Assembly: GCF_000215935.2 (NCBI RefSeq)
Contig: NZ_AFNU02000001.1
Span: forward strand, 372,001 to 436,000
Direction of reading: 5' to 3'
DNA from: Haloplasma contractile SSD-17B
GTDB taxonomy: Bacteria; Bacillota_I; Bacilli_A; Haloplasmatales; Haloplasmataceae
DNA length: 64,000 nt
Shown here: one piece after another, positions 25,779 through 34,697 of the stretch
Numbering within the stretch: position 1 is the stretch's first letter
Layout of the letters: each line of letters begins with the position of its first letter
The notes under the pieces: model-generated
The model's database searches: none
Told to the model about the DNA's origin: nothing
Seen by the model: only the letters and a program-made list of their open reading frames with translations
Position numbers and translations under genes: made by a program

Positions 25779-25870
25779 GCTTTTGTCTCAATTTTGATGT
25801 AAAAATATGTCACCTATCCATTTTCAGTTTCATAAACTACTTATATGAAACCAATGGGTAGGTGATTTTT

Positions 25871-26713
25871 ATGTGTAAAATTTTAATTGTAAAGAATCAA
25901 GATGAACGATTAGTATATGTATTCGATTACCTTAAAAAACAGAACGTTCAGGTAATCATGATAACAAATGAAGATGATTTTAAGTCTGAACTTATCAAGC
26001 GAGATGTTGATGCAGTGATTTTACCCGTAAGAGGAGTGAGTGACCAAGGGGAAATTGATGGTACTGATATAATGCTATCAAAAGAGAACTTATTATTACT
26101 ACAAGGCAAAACACTATTTTCAGGTCTTTTAAATAGTCAATTTAATCAAATGTGCAAACAAGTTGGTGTTAAATTTATAACTTATTTGGATGATGATGTT
26201 GCCATTAAAAATAACTATATTACAGTTGAGGGTGTTATTTCACATATTACAAATTCAAGTAGACGCGCAATTCTAAATTCGAATACACTTGTTATAGGAT
26301 ATGGAAAACTCGGACAGATTACAGCTTCAGTTTTTAAGGAATTACAATCACATGTTACAGTCGTTGCTAGAAGTCAAAAAGATCGAATACATGCTAAGAT
26401 TTCAGGATTTGGCGCAATGAGTTATAATGACTTAATTTATAAAATAGACAGATACGACTTTATTATCAATACAGTACCTGCTCACGTAATAGATGAAATT
26501 CTTTTAGATAAATTATCAAAAACAAATGTAGAAATAATTGATCTTGCGAGTAAGCCATATGGCTTAAACCATGAACTAGCTAAAATTAAAAAAGTTGAAA
26601 CGACAATTCTTAAAGGGGTACCTGGTAAAATCGCTCCTAAAACATCTGGAGAATTAATCGCTATAAATGTAGTCAAATTTATATGCGGGGGGGATGATGA
26701 TGATAGCAGGTAA
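25871..26713 (+). CDS. dpaA: Dipicolinate synthase subunit A
   Basis: 280 residues. A Rossmann domain with VIGYGKLGQITASVF is followed by the DpaA signature LASKPYGLN and GVPGKIAPKTSGELIA. With DpaB it oxidises (hydroxy)tetrahydrodipicolinate to dipicolinic acid, the spore-core calcium chelator, normally in the mother cell. The ATG at 25871 follows TAGGTGA; the GTG at 25862 lies inside that site. It overlaps dpaB. Presence of the pair is a strong sign of spore-former ancestry. Confidence 0.93.
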   Translation: MCKILIVKNQDERLVYVFDYLKKQNVQVIMITNEDDFKSELIKRDVDAVILPVRGVSDQGEIDGTDIMLSKENLLLLQGKTLFSGLLNSQFNQMCKQVGVKFITYLDDDVAIKNNYITVEGVISHITNSSRRAILNSNTLVIGYGKLGQITASVFKELQSHVTVVARSQKDRIHAKISGFGAMSYNDLIYKIDRYDFIINTVPAHVIDEILLDKLSKTNVEIIDLASKPYGLNHELAKIKKVETTILKGVPGKIAPKTSGELIAINVVKFICGGDDDDSR

Positions 26714-27281
26714 AGAAAAATTGAGGATAGCGTTTGGAATTACTGCCTCTTACCATAAAATTAATGAAATTGTTCCCATAATTAAACGTTTAAAAGAATT
26801 TGGTCATATGGTAAGGTTATTTGTTACACCTAGTGTACTAAATTATAAAGAAATCAAGACATTAATAGAAGAGCAATTAGACGATGATTTAATTAGTGAT
26901 ATTGCTGACGCTGAACCCTTTGGTCCAAATAGTTCATTTGATTTAATGATTGTCGCTCCTCTTACTGGTAATTCAATGAGCAAGTTAGCAAATGGTATAA
27001 CCGATAATGCAGTACTAATGACAGCTAAAGGTGTACTAAGAAATGATAAACCCGTTATTTTAGCTATATCTACCAATGATGCATTGGGGTTAAACGGTGC
27101 TAACTTGATGAAACTAATGGTTAGCAAAAACATTTTCTTTGTTCCTTTTGGTCAGGATGACCCTGACAACAAACCCTATAGCCTTGTAGCGGAATTCAGC
27201 AAAATACAGGATACCATTCATCATTCAATTAACGGAAAACAGATACAACCCATAATTATTGGGAACGGTAAGAGTAACTAA
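26694..27281 (+). CDS. dpaB: Dipicolinate synthase subunit B (flavoprotein)
   Basis: About 193-195 residues; three ATGs in a row (26694, 26697, 26700) make the exact start uncertain, with the G-run just before serving as ribosome site. Flavoprotein fold with MIVAPLTGNSMSKLANGITDN and a C-terminal FVPFGQDDP segment. It overlaps dpaA by about 20 bases, indicating translational coupling. No asd gene follows, unlike Bacillus. Confidence 0.93.
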   Translation: MMMIAGKEKLRIAFGITASYHKINEIVPIIKRLKEFGHMVRLFVTPSVLNYKEIKTLIEEQLDDDLISDIADAEPFGPNSSFDLMIVAPLTGNSMSKLANGITDNAVLMTAKGVLRNDKPVILAISTNDALGLNGANLMKLMVSKNIFFVPFGQDDPDNKPYSLVAEFSKIQDTIHHSINGKQIQPIIIGNGKSN

Positions 27282-27505
27282 ATCAAATAAAAAGAACATA
27301 TGAAATAAAATATGATTTATAAATGTATTGTCTTTAAGATGTTGTTAGATGAGCCCCTATTCATAATGCATATAAATATCCTGAACCGGTTTTAATAAAT
27401 TTATTGTTCTTATATGGATAGACGCTTATAACATAATGAACAGAATTGCATATAATGCATTATGGATACTAGAAAAAATACACAAACAATTTGGTTGGTG
27501 ATGTT

Positions 27506-28552
27506 ATGAAATTAGTAGTTTTGAAATTTGGGGGCACATCTATAAGGAACAAAAATTATTTTCTAAAAGCAATGAACCATATAAAAAATGAATTAACAAA
27601 AGGCCATAAAATCATATGTGTGGTTTCTGCGATGGGAAGAATGGGAGAACCTTATTCAACTGACACGCTAAAAAGTTTAGTGTCATACCAAATCTCAAAG
27701 AAAGAGCAAGATCGTTTATTATCATGTGGTGAAATCATTTCTAGTGTTGTCTTCTCAGACTTTTTATTAGTGAACGGCATTAAGTCGATATCGTTATCGA
27801 CTAAAGATACAGGAATAAAGACAGATGGTCAATTTACAAATGCGAATATTACGGCTATTGATGATTCAACCATTAAGAAAACACTTGAATCCCATGATGT
27901 TGTCGTCATCCCAGGATTTCAAGGATTAACAAAAGACAGAGAAATAACAACTCTTGGTCGTGGCGGTAGCGATACAACGGCGATTGCTTTAGGAATTAAG
28001 TTAAATGCATTTTATGTTGATATAGTATCTGATGTTGAAGGGATTATGACAGCTGATCCTAAGTTAGTTAAGAATGCAAAACGTATTACTAAGATCAGTT
28101 ATGATGACTTACTTACTATGACCAAGAATGGGGCTAAAGTACTACATTATAAGGCTGCAAGTTTAGCAAAACAAAGTAAAATTAAGTTGCGATTCTTATC
28201 AATTGATCATCCGGAATCGTATACTGAAATAGTCGATGAATCGATTAGCAATACGGTTAACATTACATCAAAAGCGCGTTTTGTAAGATATGATACAAAG
28301 TTTGATTTAAAGCGCAGTATATTCAGTTCATTTGTTGATGAATATGAAAATTTTTATTATGTTGACGAGGATAACGAAAGTTCAATCGATATCTTTTTAA
28401 ATAACTCAGGTGTAAATTATAAAAAGGAATATGGATATGTCAAAATTTCAGTGATTAATCATAAGAATGATCCAGTTGAAACAATTCTTTTTACAAACGA
28501 GGAAAATTTAAAAGATAAATTAAATAATATCCATCAAAACCTCGTGTCTTAA
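27506..28552 (+). CDS. dapG: Aspartokinase (DapG-like) with shortened regulatory region
   Basis: 348 residues, against about 404 for Bacillus DapG. The kinase domain looks intact: KFGGTS at 7-12, VSAMGR at 40-45, LSCGE at 72-76, LGRGGSDTTA at 150-159 and DVEGIMTADP at 176-185. After residue 255, where two ACT domains should follow, there is only about 90 residues with one ACT-like stretch (about 259-340). That stretch is similar to the tail of the next protein. It should phosphorylate aspartate on the way to lysine, diaminopimelate and dipicolinate; feedback control is probably altered. The ATG at 27506 is preferred over the in-frame TTG at 27491. Confidence 0.88.
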   Translation: MKLVVLKFGGTSIRNKNYFLKAMNHIKNELTKGHKIICVVSAMGRMGEPYSTDTLKSLVSYQISKKEQDRLLSCGEIISSVVFSDFLLVNGIKSISLSTKDTGIKTDGQFTNANITAIDDSTIKKTLESHDVVVIPGFQGLTKDREITTLGRGGSDTTAIALGIKLNAFYVDIVSDVEGIMTADPKLVKNAKRITKISYDDLLTMTKNGAKVLHYKAASLAKQSKIKLRFLSIDHPESYTEIVDESISNTVNITSKARFVRYDTKFDLKRSIFSSFVDEYENFYYVDEDNESSIDIFLNNSGVNYKKEYGYVKISVINHKNDPVETILFTNEENLKDKLNNIHQNLVS

Positions 28553-28576
28553 AAACTATATACTGGAGGGAAACAT

Positions 28577-29692
28577 ATGTATAATAAGTTAATGACAACC
28601 TTGATTACTCCATGGGTTGAAAAAGAAGAAATAAACCTCCTTATATTGAAAAGTTTGATTAATCATTTAATTAGACTAAATACATCTACGATTTTATTAA
28701 CTGCTTCAAGCTTAGATTCACGTACGTTATCAAATGACGATAAGAAATACCTATATGAAGAAACAATCAAGATCGTTAATAATCGAACAGCGATTTATGC
28801 AGGTCTAGATTGCAACTGTGAGTGTAAGTCTCTTGTTTTTATAGAAAAGGTTGACCATCTTAAAATAGATGGTTATTTCATCATCATTCCTTACCATGGC
28901 ATAAGAGATTGTAAACGAATCATTCAGTTCATCCGTGATGTGAGAAAGTGTACATCTAAGCCAATCATCATTCGATTTAAATCCAAAGCAATGAAATCCG
29001 ATGTAATAATTAATTTGCTTGAAAAATTGTTATCAATAAAGGATGTAAATATAAAAGGATTTGAAGTAAGTAAAAAGAACCATGTAGCGATTACAAAATA
29101 CAAAAATAAAATTTGCAAAAAAAAATTTAAGATGATGATTCATAATCTTGAGTTTTATACCGGTGATGAACACCTTTTATTTGATGCAAATGTAGGGAGA
29201 GATGAAATCCTTAGACGATCTTCAGAGATTTATAAGATGAGTATGAGAACGTTTTATGAAATTTTAAAAACTCGCGAAGAGAAGAAGAGTAATGAAATTC
29301 TTGAACTCTATAAACAGAAATTTAAAGAGCTAACGGATAAAAATAATGTGATTCGAGTCAAGGACCAAATAAATCGTAGTGATGAAATTCACACAATCTA
29401 TAAAGCAGGTTATATAAAATATGCAACAGAACGAAGTATAGACTCAATCTTTCATTTAGCGGGAATTATGGATGGGAAAGATAAAGAATATTATGTACCG
29501 AAAGATCAAGAAAAAACGATTAATGACTTATTAGCAAATGTTGGATGTAAGTTTGAACAAGAACCTGGATATGTGAAAATAACACAGAAAAGTTTAAATG
29601 ATGAACGATTTAATCAGGTAAAATTTATAAAAGAAACGAGTTTAAATGATACATTATTCCGTTTTCTAGGGATATTTAATAAAGAGGGGTGA
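28577..29692 (+). CDS. DapA-like pseudoenzyme fused to an ACT-like tail shared with the adjacent aspartokinase
   Basis: 371 residues. Residues 1 to about 275 align with the true DapA encoded next (287 residues), nearly without gaps through residue 150. The DapA catalytic residues are replaced: Thr44-Thr45 by Ser-Ser, Tyr107 by His, Tyr133 by Arg, Arg138 by Ala, and the Schiff-base Lys161 by Glu163. The last 90 residues are absent from DapA and instead match the aspartokinase tail: EYYVPKDQEKTINDLLANVG with EPGYVKIT, versus FYYVDEDNESSIDIFLNNSG with EYGYVKIS. The frame is fully open with a good site (GGAGGG), so it is likely translated and not a decaying pseudogene. A regulatory or scaffold role is inference. 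Confidence 0.85.
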   Translation: MYNKLMTTLITPWVEKEEINLLILKSLINHLIRLNTSTILLTASSLDSRTLSNDDKKYLYEETIKIVNNRTAIYAGLDCNCECKSLVFIEKVDHLKIDGYFIIIPYHGIRDCKRIIQFIRDVRKCTSKPIIIRFKSKAMKSDVIINLLEKLLSIKDVNIKGFEVSKKNHVAITKYKNKICKKKFKMMIHNLEFYTGDEHLLFDANVGRDEILRRSSEIYKMSMRTFYEILKTREEKKSNEILELYKQKFKELTDKNNVIRVKDQINRSDEIHTIYKAGYIKYATERSIDSIFHLAGIMDGKDKEYYVPKDQEKTINDLLANVGCKFEQEPGYVKITQKSLNDERFNQVKFIKETSLNDTLFRFLGIFNKEG

Positions 29693-29700
29693 TATAGGTT

Positions 29701-30564
29701 ATGTTTGGACCAATTATGACGGCCATGGTAACGCCATTTAATGAACAGGATCAATTAGATTTAAATGTTTTAAAGACACTCATTGATTATTTATTAAAAA
29801 ACAATACAACAAGTTTACTATTATCGGGTACGACAGGTGAGGCTCCTACACTATCAGAAGATGAAAAAATTTTACTTTTTAAAAAGTCTATTGAATATGT
29901 TGATAAAAAAGTTCCTATAATAGCAAACGTAGGAACTAATAGTACGAAAAAGACAATACACTTTATGAAAAAATTAGAAGATTTAGATTTGGATGGGTAT
30001 TTAGTAGTAGTCCCTTATTATAATAGACCTGATCAAGAAGGAATTTATGAACACTTTAAGCATATTGCAAAAGAAACTAAGAGACCAATTATAATTTATA
30101 ATATACCAAAACGTACAGGAGTTGATCTAGAACTCGATACGATTATTAAATTATCAAAAATAAAAAATATAAAAGGGATTAAAGAATCAAGCGGTGATGT
30201 TAATAAACTAAAGGATATTATAGATAAGACCCAAGACGATTTTTTAGTTTATACAGGTGATGACCATCAAATACTCGATGCCTTTAAATTAGGTGCAGAT
30301 GGTGTCGTTTCAGTAGCTTCACATATTTTTGGAAAAAGTATTCACACCATAGTTCAATTAATATATAATAAACAGTATGAGAATGCAGAGGCAATATTTA
30401 ACATCTATATTGACAAGTTTAATGCATTATTTATGAGACCAAATCCAGCGCCGACTAAGGCTGCACTGACTAAATTAGGATTATATGTCGGTGGTGTAAG
30501 GTTACCACTTGTTGATTTAAGCGAAGACGAAGAGATGAGACTATACGAGATAATAGGGATTTAA
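29701..30564 (+). CDS. dapA: 4-hydroxy-tetrahydrodipicolinate synthase
   Basis: 287 residues, normal. All catalytic residues are in place with E. coli numbering: Thr44-Thr45 in SGTTGEAPT, Tyr107 in PYYNRP, Tyr133 and Arg138 in IIYNIPKRTG, and the Schiff-base Lys161 in GIKESSGD. It condenses pyruvate with aspartate semialdehyde, supplying the substrate for DpaAB and for diaminopimelate/lysine. It follows the DapA-like pseudoenzyme by eight bases and ends at a strong terminator. Confidence 0.97.
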   Translation: MFGPIMTAMVTPFNEQDQLDLNVLKTLIDYLLKNNTTSLLLSGTTGEAPTLSEDEKILLFKKSIEYVDKKVPIIANVGTNSTKKTIHFMKKLEDLDLDGYLVVVPYYNRPDQEGIYEHFKHIAKETKRPIIIYNIPKRTGVDLELDTIIKLSKIKNIKGIKESSGDVNKLKDIIDKTQDDFLVYTGDDHQILDAFKLGADGVVSVASHIFGKSIHTIVQLIYNKQYENAEAIFNIYIDKFNALFMRPNPAPTKAALTKLGLYVGGVRLPLVDLSEDEEMRLYEIIGI

Positions 30565-32635: not shown

Positions 32636-32807
32636 ACTATTTATTTATAAAATACACGAACAGCGATTTGACATTAAATTCTTATTATATGCAAATTAAG
32701 AATAGTTTATGATAGTTTTTGTTTTTTTTTATAGATTTCACCTAAATTCGATAATTTTTGCTCATTATTTTTTATAAAATTTATACTGTAGGAAAGTGGG
32801 TGAGAGG

Positions 32808-34697
32808 ATGTCAAAAGAAAAATCACGAAAGTTAGTAAATGATGAAACAAAAGAAGGATTAATTTATTTTGAAATTTGGGGGATTGCACTTATTTTGTTA
32901 TCAATCATTATTATTTCGGAACTGGGGACCATAGGGGCTGCACTGTATGTCTTTATCAAGTTTGCATTTGGTGATTGGTACTGGTTAATTTTAATTTATC
33001 AATTTTACTATGGAATTATGCTAATTTTATATCATGAATTTCCTACCTATAAACTAATCAAAATTAGAGGGCTATTATTTATATTATCGGGTATTTTAAT
33101 TAATAGTCACTTTGCTATTTATCATACAGTCAATAATAATGACGGATTCTTTAATATAATTGGACAAACATGGAATGTGTACATGACTTATTTAGATGAT
33201 CCTAATGCTGACTTAATAACGGGTGGTGGCATAGTAGGTGCCGTGCTATTTCAAGTTGTATATACATTACTTGGAACTATAGGGACTTATTTTATAGCCT
33301 ATGCGTTATTACTCTTTGGAGTAGCATATGTATTTGAACGGACAATTTATGATCTTATTGGTGATTTATATGATGGCATAACGGGTGCTATTAGCGCAAT
33401 AAGAAATCGATTATTAAACGAATATAAAAAAATGAAAGATGTATCGAAAAAAAATAAAGAAGTCAAAAAGACAAAATTTGATATCTTTGATCATAATAAA
33501 GAAGTAGAAGATACAGAACTGGCTAGTGATGCATTTTTCGATCAAAAACTTACGTTAGATGATGAAGATGAAATTAGAGGGAAAGATAAAAAGAATGGAT
33601 TTACGGTTTTAAATCCCAAAATACTAGATACCTATGATAATAAAAATATATTAGATGGACAAAAAGAGTTAACGATTGGTAATGCGAAAGTAATCAATTC
33701 GTTTTTATCAGAATTTAACTTACATTTAGAAGTGAATGAGATTTATATTGGTCCAACGGTCTCAACTTATATCATTTATATCGATGAATCTTATAAAACT
33801 AAAAAGTTTTTCAACTTTAAGGAAGATTTAGAGTTAAAATTAAATTCTAAATCATTAAGAGCCTATCACAGTATTGAGGAAAGGCGAACATTAGTTATTG
33901 AAGTTCCTAATAAATACCGATACAAGATTAGCCTGCGTGAAGTATTAGAGGAACGAAAACGAGGAAAAAAAACGGGTCTACCTATTGGCCGTGATTACCG
34001 TGGTAAATTAAAAACGCTTAATTTAGAACGTAATAAAAATATTTTAGTTGTTGGGAATGACTTGGATAGTAAGGTTAATTTTTTAAAATGCTTTTTATTA
34101 TCGATTTTATATACCTATACACCTGAAGAATTTGAAGTCGTTATTTTTGATTCAACGAAATATGAGTTAAATGATTTCAGTAAACTCGATCATTTATTCT
34201 ATGAATTTACTACATTATTTAAAACATGTACACCTCTATTCATAAAACTGTATACGGAGATCAGACAACGATTTAATTTATTTCAAAAATATAGTTGTAG
34301 TACTATAGATGAATATAATGAGCGAAATAAGGAAAAACAAATGAAGCCAATTGTATTAATTATTAATGACTTTTCAGATCTTTATTTAAATAGAGGAGAG
34401 TATTTAAATTATCTAAATTATATTATGAATAATGGCAATAAAGTAGGTATTTATTTATTGTTTGCTACAAGCACTATTAGTGATAACTTATTCAAAAGTC
34501 ATCTGAAGTCGAGTTTTCAAACAATCGTTTCGTTTATGTTAAATGAAAAGGAATTATCATTAAAACTAATTGAAGAAGATGCTACTAAATTATTGAAGCA
34601 TGGAGACTGTTTGATTTATGAACGTGATGGTAATACTAGTAAACGAACACAAATAGCGACAATAAGTGATGATGACATTACTAATTCTGGTTTATAA
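32808..34697 (+). CDS. SpoIIIE/FtsK-like membrane protein lacking Walker motifs and gamma domain
   Basis: 629 residues. Four to five membrane segments lie in the first 175 residues, then a charged linker (200-290), then a region that follows the SpoIIIE/FtsK motor fold: IGPTVSTYIIYID (314-326), VIEVPNKYRYKISLREVL, LPIGRDYRGK. The Walker A position, normally GATGSGKS, reads VVGNDLDSKVNF (414-425), and Walker B, normally VDELADL, reads INDFSDLY (519-526). ATQRPS has become ATSTIS. The chain ends where the DNA-reading gamma domain should begin. It occupies the spoIIIE locus. It cannot be expected to hydrolyse ATP; function unknown. GTG at 32796 is an alternative start. Confidence 0.8.
   Translation: MSKEKSRKLVNDETKEGLIYFEIWGIALILLSIIIISELGTIGAALYVFIKFAFGDWYWLILIYQFYYGIMLILYHEFPTYKLIKIRGLLFILSGILINSHFAIYHTVNNNDGFFNIIGQTWNVYMTYLDDPNADLITGGGIVGAVLFQVVYTLLGTIGTYFIAYALLLFGVAYVFERTIYDLIGDLYDGITGAISAIRNRLLNEYKKMKDVSKKNKEVKKTKFDIFDHNKEVEDTELASDAFFDQKLTLDDEDEIRGKDKKNGFTVLNPKILDTYDNKNILDGQKELTIGNAKVINSFLSEFNLHLEVNEIYIGPTVSTYIIYIDESYKTKKFFNFKEDLELKLNSKSLRAYHSIEERRTLVIEVPNKYRYKISLREVLEERKRGKKTGLPIGRDYRGKLKTLNLERNKNILVVGNDLDSKVNFLKCFLLSILYTYTPEEFEVVIFDSTKYELNDFSKLDHLFYEFTTLFKTCTPLFIKLYTEIRQRFNLFQKYSCSTIDEYNERNKEKQMKPIVLIINDFSDLYLNRGEYLNYLNYIMNNGNKVGIYLLFATSTISDNLFKSHLKSSFQTIVSFMLNEKELSLKLIEEDATKLLKHGDCLIYERDGNTSKRTQIATISDDDITNSGL

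Follow-up and report, generated by a model that had tools for sequence, protein, structure and literature searches.

The gene order dpaA-dpaB-asd-dapG-dapA is that of a spore-former operon, the spoVF region of Bacillus subtilis. In its last product, 4-hydroxy-tetrahydrodipicolinate synthase (DapA), the catalytic triad T44, Y107 and Y133 sits at the tight-dimer interface, Y107 reaches across into the active site of the neighbouring subunit, and R138 and K161 are also active-site residues (PMC3369909). Catalytically dead paralogs that assemble with active partners have been described in other systems, such as the trypanosome AdoMetDC prozyme (PMC5201418) and a deoxyhypusine synthase paralog (PMC3663545). 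Aspartokinase regulatory domains are also known apart from their kinase, as the free beta subunits of the alpha2beta2 enzymes of Corynebacterium, Thermus and Mycobacterium (PMC8690038; PDB 2zho, 3ab4, 4go5), where the beta subunit carries two ACT domains and is the product of a gene that lies inside the kinase gene, overlapping it in the same reading frame.

The window, the whole 64,000-nucleotide stretch of the Haloplasma contractile SSD-17B genome that was analysed, holds a spore dipicolinate (DPA) operon with the order dpaA-dpaB-dapG-[fusion]-dapA, as assigned using Pfam and NCBIfam; the operon genes and their features described below lie on the + strand. The first operon gene, dpaA (dipicolinate synthase subunit A, 25862..26713), matched Pfam DpaA_N above the cut-off and the NCBIfam models DpsA and spore_dpaA with E-values of 5e-55 and 7e-50, both under the curated cut-offs. 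It is followed by dpaB (dipicolinate synthase subunit B, 26694..27281; NCBIfam PRK08305, 225.7 bits, above cut-off) and by dapG (27506..28552, with the start best placed at 27506), which encodes a shortened aspartokinase of 348 aa (AA_kinase, E 7e-47) and has orthologues in 8/8 genomes of the order. The intact dapA (29701..30564; TIGR00674, 314.8 bits, above cut-off) retains all catalytic residues, starts 8 bases 3' of the fusion gene and has its Shine-Dalgarno sequence within the last codons of that gene.

Genes, order and spore-dipicolinate purpose are those of the spoVF-type operon, which was also seen in relatives (L005-L009, L022-L027), whereas the Haloplasma contractile copy lacks asd and carries the fusion gene between dapG and dapA. 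In several relatives asd lies between dpaB and dapG; the corresponding stretch here (27282-27505, about 225 bases) is without it, and asd is also gone from the same place in G002, G003 and G004. A separate asd-dapA-dapB cluster, with another aspartokinase nearby, is present elsewhere in the genome, so the operon copy of the pathway is most likely dedicated to dipicolinate. The original proposal had set the locus in the diaminopimelate/dipicolinate branch; the operon is the copy of that pathway for spore dipicolinate. A sigma-K gene, above its NCBIfam cut-off, lies just outside the window. SigK-like matches were located just upstream of dpaA (25812) and, in looser form, upstream of dapG (27431); such matches are no commoner in the window than chance and were set aside as promoter evidence, serving as a lead only. 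Rfam reported no RNA element near the operon. Downstream, at 32796-34697, a 633-aa FtsK/SpoIIIE-like protein has a degraded Walker A motif (GNDLDSKVNF vs G....GK[ST]), and an intact homologue with GSTGSGKS is encoded elsewhere in the genome; judged by this motif, the downstream protein is apparently another inactive paralog in the same neighbourhood.

The fusion gene (28577..29692) runs from ATG to TGA over 371 aa behind a strong, intact Shine-Dalgarno sequence (ggaggg, about 28565-28570), and it was identified as a dead DapA joined to a DapG tail using BLASTP, active-site alignment and a tail profile. Its residues 1-267 (28577..29377) aligned with the adjacent DapA at 29% identity and 59% positives (BLASTP, E 2e-41). 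This part was recognised as a DHDPS-family (beta/alpha)8 barrel (Pfam DHDPS, E 4e-19), and by structure comparison its model matches DHDPS crystal structures (E 1e-11). The fusion falls below the TIGR00674 equivalog cut-off (70.2 bits vs 206 required and 314.8 for the neighbouring DapA). In alignments with 11 to 19 DapA relatives, Thr44-Thr45 is replaced by Ser-Ser, Tyr107 by His, Tyr133 by Arg and Arg138 by Ala, Glu163 (codon 29063..29065) takes the position of the Schiff-base Lys161, and Gly46 has become Leu. None of the catalytic residues T44, Y107, Y133, R138 and K161 is kept, and every active-site replacement listed in the original prediction proved correct. Since the lysine is absent, the Schiff base cannot form. 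It is very improbable that the DapA scaffold has here become a new enzyme or a ligand binder with no part in the control of DapG or DapA. TIM barrels are readily re-used, which counts in favour of such a reading, and fast divergence would suit it, but with Glu in place of the catalytic Lys the Schiff-base chemistry of the superfamily is impossible, DapA is the best-fitting family in Pfam and NCBIfam with none better on offer, and the gene remains between dapG and dapA.

The remainder of the fusion, about residues 271-371 (29387..29689), derives from DapG. Residues 268-360 aligned with the tail of the upstream DapG (28256..28549) at 32% identity (BLASTP, E 7e-9). As a guard against circular comparison, a DapG-tail profile was built from 12 other genomes with the Haloplasma contractile sequences left out; the fusion scored 40.1 bits with it, whereas 2000 shuffled versions of the tail residues reached 17.3 bits at most, which establishes common descent with the aspartokinase C-terminal domain. 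The claim that the fusion bears its kinase neighbour's tail is borne out by both comparisons, with the length of the tail revised from 90 to about 100 residues. The tail is conserved along its length in the alignment. It shares a longer loop ending in SIF with the DapG of its own genome, other DapGs being without this loop, and it shares the motif YK.GY.(K/R)Y with the DapGs of other genomes, part of which the own-genome DapG has lost. The similarity appears to continue to the end of the protein, and the stop codon of the fusion is therefore probably of the DapG type. Some MAFFT alignments placed the end of the tail, LFRFLGI, on the DapA C-terminus (LYEIIGI); this placement was rejected, as YK.GY, GYVKI and DTL..L fit DapG tails. 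Taken alone, the last ten residues are ambiguous between DapA and DapG C-termini.

The tail profile matched 15 copies, spread over 14 genomes from two families, and all the loci read behind them were aspartokinase ends except the second copy in Haloplasma contractile, the fusion. Some matches extend one codon beyond the DapG stop (TAA) in L023, L024, L026 and L027, which looks like an alignment effect and not readthrough. When the tail was compared with full-length aspartokinases, profile against profile, no match was significant, so the point that it is a regulatory domain is carried by the structural match described below, and comparison of the profile with PDB sequences gave chance-level matches only.

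The anatomy of the locus supports well a tandem duplication of ~1.1 kb, which began inside dapG, where the tail starts, and stopped close to the 3' end of dapA. The two copies lie at about 28256-29377 and 29387-30474: the first consists of the DapG tail and the fusion's barrel, and the second of the fusion's tail completed by the 5' part of dapA (29701-30474). The event can be written as Gkin-Gtail-A(N)-A(C) -> Gkin-Gtail-A(N)::Gtail-A(N)-A(C) and would yield an intact dapG, a dapA'::tail gene ending on the dapG stop and an intact dapA, the order observed. That the fusion is a catalytically dead DapA born in this way is very probable, on both its origin and its loss of activity. Matching tails are what a single tandem duplication gives, so no selection for pairing is needed to account for them and the match reflects common descent in the first place; the earlier step from matching tails to pairing with the kinase is not supported in that form.

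In trees, the fusion barrel grouped with the operon DapAs of the order (support 100/99) and not with the biosynthetic DapA or those of the other family, which places the duplication after the split from the neighbouring family. The tail grouped with the DapG of its own genome, weakly (61/45). A tree constrained to descent of the fusion from its own dapA was slightly worse and was not rejected (p-AU 0.23), with a long branch; the barrel branch amounts to 2-3 changes per site. The SIF-ended loop common to the fusion tail and its own DapG suggests a late date for the duplication. In five relatives of the order dapG directly precedes dapA and the fusion is absent; it was found in 0/7 other genomes of the order and nowhere else among 395 genomes of the class, and scans of a named genome collection with the fusion and DapG gave no close relatives. 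The duplication would thus have occurred in an ancestor of Haloplasma contractile, later than the order's split from the neighbouring family, after which the fusion would have lost every DapA catalytic residue yet remained an open gene. Absence from every other genome of the order, an outcome named in advance as counting against the original prediction, removes the idea of a general control device and makes the gene lineage-specific.

A gene of one species that has lost its catalysis could be a pseudogene in decay, left over from the duplication and open by chance, and the weak codon-usage signal of the barrel (0.0 vs 0.07 bits per codon in dapA), a sign against retention, would agree with decay. 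In a neutral simulation that counted substitutions only, insertions and deletions being left out, letting the parental sequence drift as far as the fusion has diverged produced about 17 stop codons where the fusion has 0, and 0/300 simulated frames were still open, both at the observed divergence and at less than half its substitutions. With no stops where ~17 are expected, neutral decay can be rejected: over most of its history the frame has been kept open by selection acting on the protein. The ribosome-binding site is also intact, and conservative substitutions are common (59% positives vs 29% identical). The Shine-Dalgarno sequence of dapA within the end of the fusion would explain retention of that end, but not of 371 open codons. 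Decay is accordingly the least credible of the readings weighed here, and frame retention points to a fusion kept intact by selection.

Structure prediction bears on what the tail can do. Tails were modelled using AlphaFold2 with an alignment of 15 tails, and the confident model of the DapG tail (pLDDT 89, pTM 0.79) runs beta, beta, beta, alpha, beta, beta, alpha. Nearly all of its top Foldseek matches were aspartokinase regulatory domains (3mah, 2zho, 4go5, 3s1t, 3ab4), with prob 0.9-0.99 and TM up to 0.62 but E > 0.1, in gapped alignments that span most of the double-ACT targets. It is on these grounds that the tail is described as a probable shortened aspartokinase regulatory (double-ACT) domain. 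The Pfam ACT domain matched none of the 15 tails, and sequence profiles likewise gave no match. Complete ACT units (beta-alpha-beta-beta-alpha-beta) were not seen, the first helix being absent from both halves of the model; judged partly by eye, each unit seems to have lost its first helix and the following strand, on the effector side. The proposed ACT-like character of the tail is supported by the likeness of the DapG tail model to the regulatory fold, and not by a Pfam ACT domain or the first helices. With the effector-side helices missing in the model, it is doubtful that the tail senses an end product, and the model is more in keeping with an assembly module than with a sensor. Feedback by a bound end product, as first proposed, is weakened by the same features and is the least supported part of the earlier idea. 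The full-length model of the fusion, made from the DapA alignment only since MAFFT misplaced the tails in a combined alignment of DapA and DapG tails, is mediocre (mean pLDDT 57.8): the barrel strands are kept, and the tail is unreliable because the alignment held no tail relatives. Among DapG-related aspartokinases, loss of the regulatory domain is graded (L028, L038, L040, L042, L043, L022-L027), taking the form of a shortened tail in two families or of the kinase domain alone, of about 240-260 aa; kinase-only proteins are those of the related genomes at L028, L038 and L040.

A second dead DapA occupies the same operon slot, right after dapG, in two species of a sister genus (L020:747-1490, - strand; L021:2561-3295, + strand). 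These proteins of 245-248 aa have no DapG tail, segments of the barrel are deleted, and the residues around Thr44, Tyr107, Arg138 and Lys161 are replaced or deleted, with Pfam DHDPS still recognising the family. The two are 56% identical, and dN of 0.36 and dS of 1.39, the latter close to saturation, give a ratio of ~0.26, which indicates purifying selection; the ratios for dapG and dpaB are 0.06 and 0.04. Like the fusion, they are derived from DapA, have lost the active site, follow dapG and are kept by selection. Unlike the fusion, which accompanies an intact DapA and carries a tail, they replace the operon DapA, no active DapA being found beside the dead one. In the tree the fusion and the sister-genus proteins join at 71/75, on long branches that were both flagged for possible attraction; common ancestry was not accepted, and the sister-genus proteins are treated as an independent case.

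With regard to role, the chances are about even that the fusion serves the dipicolinate pathway as a non-catalytic subunit, paired with DapG and/or DapA. DapG as its main partner is a tentative proposal, somewhat short of even: the tail, apparently of the fold by which aspartokinase chains associate, would most likely pair with the tail of DapG, and the expected effect on the kinase would be a change in assembly or stability. The barrel may also pack against DapA. Within the tight dimer of DapA, the fusion would present His where the neighbour's site needs Tyr107, and as this tyrosine is supplied across the dimer, a mixed dimer is expected to damp DapA. The sister-genus case favours a function in the barrel, and the intactness of the tail favours one in the tail. 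A putative physical bridge, in which the tail binds the aspartokinase and the barrel binds DapA so that their ratio is set during sporulation, combines the two and is less likely than either a DapG partnership or the rival considered next.

That rival, to be taken seriously although unlikely, is that the fusion co-assembles by default with DapG and/or DapA, that its partners have adapted to it, and that the complex now depends on it to fold or stay stable although it conveys no regulatory information, a course of constructive neutral evolution. At birth the shared tail and barrel were identical to those of the neighbours, so co-assembly was the default, and in a simulation study of duplicated homomers, heteromers replace homomers (PMC11066126). 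Confinement to one species and a tail model without effector-side elements also fit an information-free subunit; the divergence of the barrel, at 2-3 changes per site, exceeds what co-folding alone seems to need, and the parallel case in the sister genus is tail-less. A narrower reading, that the barrel mixes into the DapA oligomer as a prozyme-like or dominant-negative modulator of DapA alone, the tail being an unimportant leftover that replaces the lost C-terminal part of DapA, is improbable. The sister genus, in keeping a tail-less dead DapA in this slot, does show that a barrel by itself can be what is kept, and the strands of the fusion barrel are preserved in the model. The sister-genus operon, however, has no active DapA, which leaves its dead one without an operon partner, and the fusion tail is conserved over its full length, with YK.GY.(K/R)Y kept in the fusion and partly lost in its own DapG. 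The reading as a non-catalytic subunit of the pathway, in which both parts may act, is preferred.

Such a subunit would resemble the AdoMetDC prozyme and the deoxyhypusine synthase paralog in being a dead paralog kept beside an intact, active relative, with selection deduced here from frame retention only; it differs in joining DapA to a domain of another pathway enzyme. With the aspartokinase beta subunits it shares a regulatory domain that lacks its kinase and could in principle pair with the domain of the kinase, but its domain sits on a dead DapA, arose by duplication and, as modelled, lacks the first helix in both of its ACT halves. Internal-start translation from the kinase gene, moreover, does not apply, as the fusion is a separate gene with its own Shine-Dalgarno sequence and a DapA barrel attached. 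No DapA pseudoenzyme or aspartokinase-DapA fusion was found in the open-access literature, most subscription journals lying outside this search, in line with the expectation of no described case. To our knowledge there is no earlier dead DapA, and the fusion would be the first. It is best placed with the known dead-paralog subunits, as a variant and not as an established regulator.

The locus would offer a clean natural example of a short tandem duplication over a gene border giving rise to a chimeric subunit, the halves of which match two neighbouring enzymes, and it shows aspartokinase feedback domains being lost step by step in a copy of the pathway that serves spores only. As the sister genus has arrived at a dead DapA in the same slot by another route, one can test, as a pattern, whether spore-dipicolinate operons retain an inactive DapA. 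If the bridge were true, the dipicolinate branch would have its first and third activities tied into one complex, by an assembly factor that tandem duplication had made in one step.
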